Shown here piece by piece: positions 47,899 through 53,067 of a stretch of 64,000 nucleotides of DNA. The stretch's first letter is position 1. Every line of letters starts with the position of its first letter. The stretch is from Plesiomonas shigelloides (lineage in GTDB: Bacteria; Pseudomonadota; Gammaproteobacteria; Enterobacterales; CAMTGL01). The notes under the pieces were generated by a model that ran no database searches, was not told the origin of the DNA, and saw only the letters and a list, made by a program, of their open reading frames with translations. Position numbers and translations under genes: made by a program. The stretch covers positions 1,860,001-1,924,000 of the forward strand of contig NZ_LT575468.1 in NCBI RefSeq assembly GCF_900087055.1, read 5' to 3'.

Positions 47899-47975
<77 letters not shown>

Positions 47976-48024
47976 CCAAATTCTTTCTTTTTCTTGTCTA
48001 TCACCCATCGGTGACGCATAAAAC

Positions 48025-48101
<77 letters not shown>

Positions 48102-48150
48102 CCAAATTCTTTCTTTTTCTTGTCTGCCACCCATCGGTGGCACATAAAAC

Positions 48151-48227
<77 letters not shown>

Positions 48228-48271
48228 ACAGATTCTTTCTTCGCGTGTCACCCATCGGTGACTGATAAAAT

Positions 48272-48348
<77 letters not shown>

Positions 48349-48397
48349 CCAAATTCTTTCTTTTTCTTGTCTGTCACCCATCAGTGACACATAAAAC

Positions 48398-48474
<77 letters not shown>

Positions 48475-48521
48475 ACAGATTCTTTCTTCGCGACAAACCG
48501 CTAGTGCGTTTTGTTTAAAAC

Positions 48522-48598
<77 letters not shown>

Positions 48599-48626
48599 AC
48601 TGATGTAAAACTATGATGAGAGAAAT

Positions 48627-48700
48627 TGGAGGCGCGTTCCGGAGTCGAACCGGACTAGGCGGATTTGCAATCCGCTACATAACCGCTTTGTTAACGCGCC
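48627..48700 (-). tRNA. tRNA-Cys(GCA)
   Basis: 74 nt with encoded CCA, anticodon GCA in GGATTGCAAATCC, nearly identical to E. coli cysT. Second gene of the operon, after tRNA-Gly as in E. coli glyW-cysT. Confidence 0.96.
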
Positions 48701-48704
48701 TTTT

Positions 48705-48780
<76 letters not shown>

Positions 48781-49148: not shown

Positions 49149-50138
49149 ATGAACCACCTGCTTTTTTCACCTGAACTTTGCCCTTCCCTACGTAATACTG
49201 ATACCCCAATAACGTCTGCCGGTGTGCGGATGCTGTTTAACCTCAGTAGTGGTCGCCTGACTCAGCAAGGTTGTTTGCATCATCCTAAAAATCGGATCAA
49301 GTTTTTCCTGCGCTCATTGCTCACCTTTCCGTGGACGCTACGCTGGCTGAGTACGATTGGCCAAACCGATGCGCTGTGCTCGTTGGCGCAAAAAGAGCCG
49401 TCGGTTGCCTTACGTTTGCATCGCCCTTACTTAAGCCGAGGCTTGAATCTGAGCCAGCGCCTAAATTTACTCAGCCAGCACTATCAACTGCTGCTAAATC
49501 ATCTGCCAAGTGATGTGGTACAAGCGTGCTTGTCCAATGAGGGTTTTACGCTGGCAGAGCTGGAAGGCAAATCAGGGGAGTTTTATCCGGTACAGATCTC
49601 CGCGCTGCACTCATTTGATAAAGAAGGCGAGCTATCTTTACGCTTATACAACCCGCAGGGACAAGTACTAGTCACCGTCACCTTCAATTTGATTGAGCTG
49701 GAAGGTCGCCCGGCTATCTATATTGGTGGCTTACAGGGACCGCGCCAAAGTACGCCTCATGAAGTGATCAAAGTCGCAACCAAAGATTTACACGGTTTGT
49801 TCCCGAAAAAATTGGCGATTGATGCCCTCGCAGCCTTTGTCATGGCTCTGGATGGTCAGCAAATTATCGCCACCAGCAACCAGACGCATATCTACCGTTC
49901 ACTGCGCTATCGCAAGACCATTCAAGCGGATTACGACAGTTTCTGGGAAACGTTTGCCGGCGAAGCACTCAACTCCGGCCATTACCGATTGGCACTGCCT
50001 CTGCCGCGCAAAGCACTGCAAGATGTGGTGAGTAAAAAACGCGGCGAATATCAGCGCCGTTATGCACTAATAGATCACATGAGTAACGAAATTACTCTAA
50101 AAATGCATAATAAATCTGCTATTATCCGCACGCCCTGA
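49149..50138 (+). CDS. ybjX: VirK/YbjX family protein (DUF535)
   Basis: 329-residue cytoplasmic protein of the VirK/YbjX family, linked in Salmonella and E. coli to the PhoP regulon and to surface or peptide-resistance changes; the biochemical role is unknown. Family-like blocks include LRLHRPYLSRGLNLSQRL, LSLRLYNPQGQVLVTVTFNL, IYIGGLQGPR, HGLFPKKLAIDAL and YDSFWETFAGE. ATG at 49149 follows GAGACGTT. A PhoP-box-like promoter lies upstream. Near ybjD, lysO and hcp-hcr, as in E. coli. Confidence 0.88.
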   Translation: MNHLLFSPELCPSLRNTDTPITSAGVRMLFNLSSGRLTQQGCLHHPKNRIKFFLRSLLTFPWTLRWLSTIGQTDALCSLAQKEPSVALRLHRPYLSRGLNLSQRLNLLSQHYQLLLNHLPSDVVQACLSNEGFTLAELEGKSGEFYPVQISALHSFDKEGELSLRLYNPQGQVLVTVTFNLIELEGRPAIYIGGLQGPRQSTPHEVIKVATKDLHGLFPKKLAIDALAAFVMALDGQQIIATSNQTHIYRSLRYRKTIQADYDSFWETFAGEALNSGHYRLALPLPRKALQDVVSKKRGEYQRRYALIDHMSNEITLKMHNKSAIIRTP

Positions 50139-50182
50139 GCGCAAGGCTAAAAAAGCGATTGCGCGCATTATAATCAGCTAGT

Positions 50183-50196
50183 GCTGATTCGGTTCA
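50183..50196 (+). promoter_or_regulatory. Cra (FruR) operator of fruK
   Basis: GCTGATTCGGTTCA matches the 14-base Cra consensus at 13 positions. It ends 8 bases before the -10 TATAAT (50205-50210), overlapping the -35 position, so repression by Cra and relief by fructose 1-phosphate are expected. Confidence 0.7.
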
Positions 50197-50204
50197 GCCT
50201 GTAC

Positions 50205-50210
50205 TATAAT
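50205..50210 (+). promoter_or_regulatory. -10 element of the fruK promoter
   Basis: Perfect TATAAT, 98 bases before the fruK start. The -35 region is weak and overlaps the Cra operator. GTTCAG (50192-50197) / CTGAAC (50217-50222) form an inverted repeat around it. Confidence 0.6.
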
Positions 50211-50251
50211 AAAGAACTGAACAACTGGCGGTATTACATTGATTGCGGAAC

Positions 50252-50294
50252 ATCAGTGACAGTGCTGTGACGTTGTCACTGATTTTTACTTTTT
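50252..50294 (+). terminator. Terminator-like hairpin in the fruK leader
   Basis: Perfect 10-bp stem ATCAGTGACA (50252-50261) / TGTCACTGAT (50274-50283), 12-base loop, followed by TTTTTACTTTTT. It ends directly before the ribosome-binding site AGGAG (50295-50299), between promoter and gene. Confidence 0.65.
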
Positions 50295-50308
50295 AGGAGT
50301 CATCGCGG

Positions 50309-51241
50309 ATGCAGCGCGTCATTGCGGTAACGTTAAATCCGGCTATCGACCTCACCGGTAACATTGATGAATTACACCCGGGTGAGCTGAATCTGGTTAA
50401 TGATTTCAGCCGTCACTGTGCGGGCAAAGGGATCAATGTCGCTCGTATTTTGGCCGATCTGGGTGCCGACGTTACAGTCACCGGCTTTCTCGGCAATAAC
50501 AACCAGATGGGATTTGAGAGCCTGTTTGAGCAAAAAGGACTGAAAGATCAGTTCTTGCGCGTCGACGGCCGAACTCGAGTCAACATTAAGCTGGCTGAAA
50601 GTAATACCCGCACAACCGAGATTAACTTTCCCGGCTTCCATGTTGATACGGCCATTCAGCAACGTTTGTTCGATCAGCTGCGCCATCAGGCGGGCCCTGA
50701 CTCGTTGTTTATCCTCAGTGGCAGCCTGCCACAAGGTGTCGAGCCGTGGTTCTATGCCGAATTGATCCGCGCCCTGCGTGCCAAAGGCGCGACGGTTTAC
50801 TTCGACTCCAGTTCAGCCGCGCTGACGGAGGGGGTAAAAGCCGGTCCACATTTGATCAAACCGAACCTGAAAGAGCTGTCGCACTGGTGCGGTAAAGAGA
50901 TCACCACCTTAGAACAAGCTCTGCCATTCGCTCATCAGTTACACCAAAACGGTGTAGCGCAGGTGGTGATTTCGGCCAGCTGTCAGGGGGCGATCACGGT
51001 CAGTGGACAAGGCGTCTTCCGTAGCATGCCGCCGAAGGTCAATGTGGTCTCTGAAGTGGGTGCCGGTGATACTTTGGTAGCCGGTCTGGCTTGGGCGGCC
51101 ATTAAAGGCTGGGATATTGCCCAAGGGCTGCGTTTTGCCACTGCGCTGGCAAGCTGGACGGTTTCCGATCATGGCGTGCATGTTCCGTCTATGGAAGCGC
51201 TGGACTATGTGCTGAACAACACGCAAGTCGAATCGCTCTAA
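50309..51241 (+). CDS. fruK: 1-phosphofructokinase
   Basis: PfkB-family kinase converting fructose 1-phosphate to fructose 1,6-bisphosphate. Signatures: VTLNPAIDLTG, HCAGKGINVARILADLG, the closing-loop block GRTRVNIKL, LSGSLPQGV, and the C-terminal PfkB signature VSEVGAGDTLVAGLAWA with the catalytic Asp. 310 residues. It is not in a fruBKA operon: neighbours are ybjX and ybjD. The Cra operator supports fruK over tagatose-phosphate kinase. It ends at a bidirectional terminator. Confidence 0.9.
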   Translation: MQRVIAVTLNPAIDLTGNIDELHPGELNLVNDFSRHCAGKGINVARILADLGADVTVTGFLGNNNQMGFESLFEQKGLKDQFLRVDGRTRVNIKLAESNTRTTEINFPGFHVDTAIQQRLFDQLRHQAGPDSLFILSGSLPQGVEPWFYAELIRALRAKGATVYFDSSSAALTEGVKAGPHLIKPNLKELSHWCGKEITTLEQALPFAHQLHQNGVAQVVISASCQGAITVSGQGVFRSMPPKVNVVSEVGAGDTLVAGLAWAAIKGWDIAQGLRFATALASWTVSDHGVHVPSMEALDYVLNNTQVESL

Positions 51242-51313: not shown

Positions 51314-51346
51314 AAAACAGGAGACCTGAGGTCTCCTGTTTTATTT
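51314..51346. terminator. Bidirectional terminator between fruK and ybjD
   Basis: 13-bp stem AAAACAGGAGACC (51314-51326) / GGTCTCCTGTTTT (51330-51342), loop TGA, with T-runs in both directions. Confidence 0.9.
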
Positions 51347-51411: not shown

Positions 51412-53067
51412 TTAACCGGCTCGTCCGCGTGATAACCAAACCACCCGTGAGAACATCTGTCGCAACAGACGTGGCACAGAATCGGCTCCGCGCTGCTCCG
51501 CCGCTTCCACAATCGCCAGTGCCAAATCTGGTTTCGAGCTTTTGTGGATCGCTTTATCGATCACTCGCCTTGGAGACATCGGAATGCCCTGTGGAATTTG
51601 CGCTACTTGGTGAAAAACGCTAGCAAATCCTTCCCGATATAGATACATCTCCATATCCGACACCGGTAAGAAGGTTAACCGCTCTCGCTCAGTGTCATTG
51701 TTACGCAGCGCGCCTCGCACCGTTGCGGCATATTTTTTCCCCGCATCATCACCATCGGTCAGCACGTGCCATTCAATCCCCATCCCGCGGGCAAATTTGA
51801 TCAGCGGCTTTAAGCCACACTGCGCAAACTCGATGATTTTGATCCCTTCCGAATGGAAATGATAACCAGACAAGCTCGCCAGCTGAGTCAGCAACCACAC
51901 CTCCGTCTCCCCTTCCACCAACAGCCAACTGCGTGCAAATAAAGAAGCTGCGCGGTTAAAGCAGATATGGAAAGCGATGCGGCGGCTGTCCTCACGACTG
52001 AGCATGCCAGGGAATACCCGATACGCTGAAACCTTGTTGGAGTTACGCACTAGGCGGCAAATACGCTCCACCGGCACATAGGAAAGCAGCTCACCCGAGT
52101 TGGTGGTAGTCAGACGCTGCAACGGCAATTCAGATAGCACGCCCCATGCCACCGACAACATGATCGGGTGCAATCGGGTTTCTGGATCTTCGATGATCAG
52201 CAGTGGCCTTGCCTCTGGCGCAAGCGCGTCGATGCCGCGCGAATGCAGTAAGCTGGCAAACATACCCAAAAACAGCAGACGAATATTGCGATTTTCTGGC
52301 CGTTTCGCCAATCCACGCAAAATCTCCAATGATTGCCATGAGTTATGCTGCGTTAAATCAGGAATACGGCGCCGTTTTTGCGGCAAAGGGGCTGAGTCAT
52401 GAATGGCAAAATAGTGCTCTAACAGTTGGCGCGCGGCCTCCAAGCCTTCACGGATCTCACGGTTGGTAATATTTTCTGGGCATTCACTTAAGCTGTGCGC
52501 TAACCGGTCGGTTATCTCAGAAAAACCTTCAAGCGGAACCCCGTTCTCGGTCAACTCCTGCGCCCGATGGCGCACCTGCCGCGCATCGCGTAAACGCAGA
52601 ACCGGATGCAAGCGGATCAGTTGCCGGATCAGCACATCAATATTAGCCACGTGAATCGAACGCCCTGCAGCATCGATGAAATTGCGCCACGTCGCGACGC
52701 TACCGTCTTCGCACCACTCGCCTTCGAGGCGAAAGTGGATCCGGTGCAGGTTATCGACCCCGAGCATACACACTGGGCTAAATAGCTGGTATTTGTCCGC
52801 AGACCAATGCCCCACGGTGTGCTCGCAAAAGGTCAGTACAATGTGCAGATGACGCTCTTTGGCCGTCTCTTCTCCCGGCGGGTGATAAAAATCACTGACC
52901 TGAAAACGATACAACTCTTGCGCAGGCGAAAGGATCAGGCGCAAGGCATCCAACAAACTGGATTTACCCCATGCGTTTTCCCCGATCAGCACCGTATTAT
53001 CATCCAGCTGCAGTGACAGGCGGTTGATCCCACGAAACCCTACCATCTCAATCCGTTCGAGAAACAT
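51412..53067 (-). CDS. ybjD: OLD-family ATP-dependent nuclease-like protein YbjD
   Basis: 551-residue protein with an SMC/RecF-like ATPase domain (Walker A GENAWGKSS near the N-terminus, LLIIEDPETRLHP as Walker B/signature region) and a C-terminal TOPRIM domain (SWLLVEGETEVWLL, HVLTDGDDAGKKYA). OLD-type nucleases cut DNA with Mg2+; the E. coli YbjD role is not established. Starts at MFLERIEMVGFRGINRL, typical of the ATPase domain. A charged alternative frame at its 3' end (51350-51412) looks coding-like but is crossed by a terminator. Confidence 0.9.
   Translation of the reverse strand: MFLERIEMVGFRGINRLSLQLDDNTVLIGENAWGKSSLLDALRLILSPAQELYRFQVSDFYHPPGEETAKERHLHIVLTFCEHTVGHWSADKYQLFSPVCMLGVDNLHRIHFRLEGEWCEDGSVATWRNFIDAAGRSIHVANIDVLIRQLIRLHPVLRLRDARQVRHRAQELTENGVPLEGFSEITDRLAHSLSECPENITNREIREGLEAARQLLEHYFAIHDSAPLPQKRRRIPDLTQHNSWQSLEILRGLAKRPENRNIRLLFLGMFASLLHSRGIDALAPEARPLLIIEDPETRLHPIMLSVAWGVLSELPLQRLTTTNSGELLSYVPVERICRLVRNSNKVSAYRVFPGMLSREDSRRIAFHICFNRAASLFARSWLLVEGETEVWLLTQLASLSGYHFHSEGIKIIEFAQCGLKPLIKFARGMGIEWHVLTDGDDAGKKYAATVRGALRNNDTERERLTFLPVSDMEMYLYREGFASVFHQVAQIPQGIPMSPRRVIDKAIHKSSKPDLALAIVEAAEQRGADSVPRLLRQMFSRVVWLSRGRAG

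Follow-up and report, generated by a model that had tools for sequence, protein, structure and literature searches.

The gene fruK in Plesiomonas shigelloides is an orphan across the whole genome, and not merely a gene that lies outside its usual operon. It was found in the window, i.e. the stretch of 64,000 nucleotides that we analysed as a whole, where an intact 1-phosphofructokinase gene follows a leader that has a Cra (FruR) operator-like site and a terminator-like hairpin. Our analysis suggests that the most likely role of this stand-alone, Cra-repressed FruK is to serve Cra by supplying fructose-1-phosphate (F1P), a reading to which we give about an even chance. The hairpin itself is ordinary and the gene context is unusual; the interest lies in the orphan Cra-fruK pair rather than in the terminator.

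The genome retains Cra but has none of the fructose PTS genes that normally accompany fruK. When the genome was searched with the fructose EIIC (FruA) model, the best match had only 19 bits; by eye, we identified it as a ptsG-type protein, with a gene of the TatD family as its neighbour. Just one match to the EIIA_2 model exists genome-wide, and it must be ptsN as it lies between rapZ and rpoN. Since the EIIC and EIIA searches are empty apart from ptsN, fruB and fruA are absent from the genome, and we rejected a hidden fructose PTS elsewhere in it on the basis of the same searches. The original prediction that fruK stands alone was hence right and even understated the situation. The Cra protein of this genome scores 452 bits; it shares 73% identity with E. 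coli Cra, and the DNA-binding domains of the two are nearly identical. Cra-like sites are located by pykF, epd and glpFK, and probably also by gapA and ackA (all genes named by eye from their translations). Together with the presence of Cra itself, these sites make Cra look like a global glycolytic regulator in this genome. As judged from the gene content, Cra would have to work here without the fructose PTS as a source of its inducer F1P.

The fruK leader has a near-consensus Cra site at the place where a repressor would block transcription. The coordinates of this site and of the other features are given in Table 1. The site GCTGATTCGGTTCAGC matches the Cra consensus GCTGAAWCGWTTCAGC at 14 of the 16 positions, and it is one of three single-mismatch sites to the pattern GCTGAWWCGWTTCAGC among the matches listed for the 3.406-Mb genome. 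Genome-wide, this pattern has 199 matches versus 74 for the reversed control, i.e. it is over-represented 2-3 times. The site covers the -35/spacer region of the likely fruK promoter, for which we predict a transcription start near 50217. If the alternative -10 box is used, the site would fall just downstream of the start, which would then be near 50181. Neither of the two TATAAT boxes has a good -35, and beside either of them the site is properly placed for repression. It had been claimed that a near-consensus Cra site overlaps the fruK promoter, and our data agree with this claim. Two features expected of a Cra-regulated promoter are present, i.e. a near-consensus palindrome over the promoter and a Cra protein in the genome able to read it. 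In the window, as in Xenorhabdus and Photorhabdus with their distant fruK lineage, the operator immediately precedes the -10 box. Control of the stand-alone fruK by Cra is well supported because of the site, its position and this parallel, the binding itself being predicted from sequence. We also observed a second palindrome, ATCAGC-TAGT-GCTGAT, at 50173-50188. Its right arm is common to the Cra site, and three half-site-like arms are consecutive in this region.

Table 1. Features of the fruK region, in window coordinates
Feature	Position	Strand	Basis or remark
ybjX (DUF535), upstream neighbour	49149..50138	+	PF04393, 282 bits
Alternative -10 box TATAAT	50169..50174	+	sequence; without a good -35
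Cra (FruR) operator-like site GCTGATTCGGTTCAGC	50183..50198	.	consensus match; Cra DNA-binding domain nearly identical to that of E. coli
Likely fruK promoter -10 box TATAAT	50205..50210	+	sequence; begins 6 bases past the Cra site
Leader hairpin, perfect 10-bp stem, intrinsic-terminator-like	50252..50283	+	folding, terminator score
Shine-Dalgarno AGGAG	50295..50299	+	sequence; fruK ATG at 50309
fruK, 1-phosphofructokinase, 310 aa, intact, GAGD active-site motif kept	50309..51241	+	TIGR03828, alignment
13-bp hairpin AAAACAGGAGACC-TGA-GGTCTCCTGTTTT, probably the terminator of both fruK and ybjD	51314..51342	.	inverted-repeat analysis
ybjD, downstream convergent neighbour	51412..53067	-	57% identical to E. 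coli YbjD

The hairpin in the fruK leader is a real element and looks like a modest intrinsic terminator. Its arms ATCAGTGACA and TGTCACTGAT have 12 nt between them and are followed by the tail TTTTACTTTTT at 50284-50294. The hairpin has 13 pairs when the G-U pairs are counted, with an energy of -14.6 kcal/mol. Perfect inverted repeats with a stem of 10 bp or longer and a loop of 3-14 number 12 in the window and 0-3 per shuffle in 10 shuffles, so that such repeats are about eight times commoner in the window than in the shuffles. The fruK leader hairpin has the best T-tail score (3.97) of the 12 repeats, and no shuffle scores above 3.5. This excess and the top-ranking T-tail argue that the element is real, and the perfect 10-bp stem with a T-rich tail reported just before the ribosome-binding site is thus confirmed and, like the Cra site, exceeds chance. 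A stable stem followed by a T-tract is what an intrinsic terminator should show in sequence, the A/T-rich stem base and the interrupted T-tract making this one modest. Its d'Aubenton Carafa score d ranges from -0.8 to +7.8, i.e. from borderline to modest, according to whether the stem is taken to include the closing A-T pair. Terminator activity is predicted from these features. Because the ribosome-binding site of fruK is within 12 nt of the hairpin, the fruK transcripts must pass it. The simplest reading would be passive partial termination, and most likely the hairpin would trim the read-through from ybjX and reduce the basal expression of fruK.

It could also be that the hairpin mainly terminates ybjX and insulates fruK, with the fruK transcripts reading through at a constant partial rate. 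We consider this nearly as likely to be true as false. This reading is about the hairpin alone and does not conflict with our explanation of the orphan gene. Between the ybjX stop (50138) and fruK, the + strand has no other terminator-like element, the terminator score of the hairpin is modest, and the hairpin was not found in the other lone-fruK leaders, all of which would fit a role in ending ybjX transcripts. However, it is located 114 nt beyond ybjX and downstream of the fruK promoter, and hence it would act on fruK too.

The protein encoded by fruK is a diverged 1-phosphofructokinase. It scores 323.2 bits against the cut-off of 292 for TIGR03828 (1-phosphofructokinase), but only 312.1 against the cut-off of 432 for the enterobacterial FruK model NF007068/PRK09513, which the FruK proteins of Xenorhabdus and Photorhabdus pass at 585-587 bits. 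It is 43-45% identical to E. coli FruK. With this identity and the score under the enterobacterial cut-off, binding to Cra should not be assumed for the window FruK. We rejected the possibility of a mis-called 6-phosphofructokinase II, as the protein has 121 bits on the PfkB model and a Pfk-2 (PfkB) with 522 bits is encoded elsewhere in the genome. In the FruK tree the window protein is placed outside the group of Enterobacteriaceae and family f9 FruK proteins with support 100/100, with long branches involved, and the forced alternative position is borderline but not rejected (p-AU 0.054). This tree suggests, at that borderline value, that the window fruK was replaced from an outside source, i.e. 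may be of horizontal origin.

The 3' ends of ybjX and ybjD overlap in E. coli, and hence fruK has been placed in that junction. The genes lysO and hcp come next after ybjX-fruK-ybjD, as in that neighbourhood. In the one congener compared, whose assembly is 75% complete, Cra was matched, and fruK and ybjD were unmatched, so that this comparison is uninformative. No relative of the window gene was found in searches of viral contigs, of plasmids or of named bacterial genomes. An array of eight tRNA genes is located at 47902-48780 on the - strand of the window; several of them are nearly identical and their spacing is even at about 125 bp.

Lone fruK genes recur across the Enterobacterales, both with and without Cra. 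We found a FruK relative (E <= 1e-40) in 212 of 395 Enterobacterales genomes, and 13 of the 212 do not have fruA (fructose EIIC), an absence that held when the threshold was relaxed. Four of these 13 have a Cra that exceeds the model cut-off or comes near it, namely the window genome, Xenorhabdus griffiniae VH1, Xenorhabdus sp. BG5 and a genome of family f9 (G314). The protein closest to Cra in G314 is 51% identical with 349 bits, under the model cut-off of 390, and a protein with 473 bits in the same genome shares only 32% identity with E. coli Cra. G314 has lost fruA and has a FruB remnant of 169 aa (locus L105, 7711-8220) directly before an intact fruK. The Cra search found none in the remaining nine genomes, so there can be a reason unrelated to Cra for keeping FruK. 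One of the nine (G011) has a FruK homologue of only 31% identity and is a doubtful member. A lone fruK, with neither a fructose EIIC nor Cra above threshold, was seen in G012, G043, G063, G097, G187 and G275, and the neighbourhoods are all different. In G026 the lone fruK (L090, 6672-7646) is inside an apparent N-acetylglucosamine cluster nagB, nagA, fruK, nagC, with nagE nearby (names given by eye).

A parallel to the window is found in Xenorhabdus and Photorhabdus. In Xenorhabdus griffiniae VH1 and Xenorhabdus sp. BG5, fruK is located between the nfo-side and the yeiP-side genes, and fruB and fruA are gone from both sides. We scanned named genomes and collected 35 loci of the Xenorhabdus/Photorhabdus type, one of which is a metagenome bin. 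Neither fruB nor fruA occurs within roughly 4 kb of fruK in any of the 35; for Photorhabdus, the search covered the surroundings of fruK. Intact fruBKA was found by the same scan in Enterobacillus and a Serratia. The identical 16-bp Cra-like site ACTGAAACGATTCAAT is present upstream of fruK in 35/35 loci; it is within 240 nt of fruK in 34 of them and at -349 in the other one, beyond an apparent insertion. In an alignment of 32 leaders the site does not vary at all (100% identity), its flanks are 82-84% identical on average, and it is followed by an invariant TATAAAT. The median dN/dS of these lone fruK genes is 0.06 and the maximum is 0.17, i.e. they are under strong purifying selection, which indicates that the genes are functional.

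Several leaders in this group carry insertions. The leader in X. griffiniae VH1 (L107) has an insertion of ~103 bp between the Cra site and fruK that is absent in its relatives. It carries a perfect 14-bp hairpin, TGATTTCTCCCCGC/GCGGGGAGAAATCA, and looks like a small mobile repeat. Apparent insertions shift the Cra-like site to -349 in Photorhabdus bodei (L133) and to -237 in P. heterorhabditis (L137).

We propose that the orphan FruK works for Cra rather than for fructose. In E. coli, FruK can make F1P from fructose-1,6-bisphosphate (FBP) in a reverse reaction and can bind Cra, and Cra represses fruK (Weeramange et al. 2024, PMC11157272). That Cra is induced by F1P is clear, and until this reverse reaction was reported, fructose uptake was the only documented source of F1P (PMC11157272). 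In our model FruK would run backwards, converting FBP and ADP to F1P and ATP, and F1P would then track the glycolytic flux. Rising FBP would lead to more F1P, and Cra would be lifted from fruK and the glycolytic genes. As Cra would repress fruK and the product of FruK would release Cra, the two would form a double-negative loop. FruK might also bind Cra directly. The reverse reaction in the window organism is expected by analogy with the E. coli enzyme. Since there is no PTS that would import fructose and make F1P from it, the most likely beneficiary of FruK is Cra, and a Cra-repressed fruK in a cell that does not get F1P from fructose uptake is what we would expect if the reverse reaction is the essential role of FruK. 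The features read directly from the sequences here are the orphan gene, the Cra site, the presence of Cra, the absence of the PTS, the recurrence, and the purifying selection in Xenorhabdus and Photorhabdus. We speculate, with somewhat less than even confidence, that a Cra-FruK loop making F1P from FBP solely as a flux signal was kept after PTS loss in more than one lineage, i.e. the genus of the window and Xenorhabdus/Photorhabdus, and that in the lineage of the window a FruK of different origin may have been used to rebuild it.

The lone FruK may instead be an ordinary catabolic or clean-up enzyme whose control by Cra was simply inherited, which we consider unlikely although worth weighing. 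Its substrate would be F1P or a related ketose-1-phosphate (tagatose- or sorbose-1-phosphate) derived from an unrecognised transporter or a promiscuous PTS permease. The lone fruK genes in Cra-less genomes would be explained in this way. In addition, a carp isolate named P. shigelloides was D-fructose positive and mannose negative (PMC9279890), so some fructose route may exist and F1P could come from fructose. However, the genome has no fructose EIIC and no fructose/mannitol-type EIIA except for ptsN, and no sugar-transport gene adjoins the window fruK. Xenorhabdus and Photorhabdus have also lost both flanking PTS genes yet kept fruK with its Cra site.

The original prediction also raised a second layer of control, i.e. 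attenuation or a small RNA released from the leader, and this part is unsupported. We consider it improbable that the hairpin is a regulated attenuator or the end of a leader small RNA of ~75 nt. At its energy minimum the leader forms a competing, antiterminator-like hairpin at 50218-50278 (-20.1 kcal/mol). This fold is exclusive with the terminator hairpin, would disrupt it, and forms first in prefix folding, and the U-rich tail resembles those of Hfq-dependent RNAs. However, when the 35 nt upstream were shuffled, the energy of the competing fold was reached in 243 of 1000 cases, so this fold is not beyond chance. The shuffled segment disrupted the terminator hairpin in 105 of 1000 cases, and the fold of the whole leader is unremarkable (z -1.39). 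The leader has no ATG-started ORF, and a 17-codon TTG frame that overlaps the hairpin does not have a Shine-Dalgarno sequence. A search of the leader against the Rfam covariance models gave no match even at E up to 1, so we rejected a known leader RNA family. No T-tailed hairpin was found between the Cra site and the start codon in the lone-fruK leaders of Xenorhabdus and Photorhabdus. It is very improbable that the palindrome acts at the DNA level, as the operator of a second transcription factor, and not as RNA: its perfect 10-bp arms have equivalent positions 22 bp apart, about two helical turns, but the arms are single-copy in the genome, which led us to reject a repeated genomic operator, and the T-tail fits a terminator.

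How Cra senses flux when there is no fructose is a debated question, and the genomes described here bear on it. A fruK that is kept under an invariant Cra site without fructose uptake amounts to a natural deletion experiment that separates the two roles of FruK. Such genomes let the Cra-FruK idea be tested where the explanation through the fructose PTS is ruled out. We found no description of a lone fruK after PTS loss in a literature search whose coverage left out most subscription journals. The reconstruction of FruR/Cra regulons in Gammaproteobacteria (PMC4052901) likewise has Cra as a global glycolytic regulator in Enterobacterales; its text contains neither the word fruK nor the genus Plesiomonas, so the lone fruK is not described there.

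The fruK leader is similar to the intrinsic-terminator attenuators of 5' leaders in having a stem-loop and a T-rich tail before the start codon, and differs from them in having no statistically supported antiterminator, no leader peptide, no ligand and no counterpart in the Xenorhabdus and Photorhabdus leaders. The E. coli operon fruBKA, the Cra-repressed fructose PTS operon, has a near-consensus Cra site at its promoter as the window fruK does, and its fruB leader has two Cra-like sites. In contrast to fruBKA, the window fruK has its own promoter, a diverged product and no fruB or fruA in the genome. Its leader has a hairpin, and we found no terminator-like element in the E. coli fruB leader, in line with the earlier statement that E. 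coli has no such leader hairpin. The partnership of Cra and FruK in E. coli (PMC11157272) was described with the fructose PTS present, whereas the window genome and the two Xenorhabdus genomes have the partners without the PTS.
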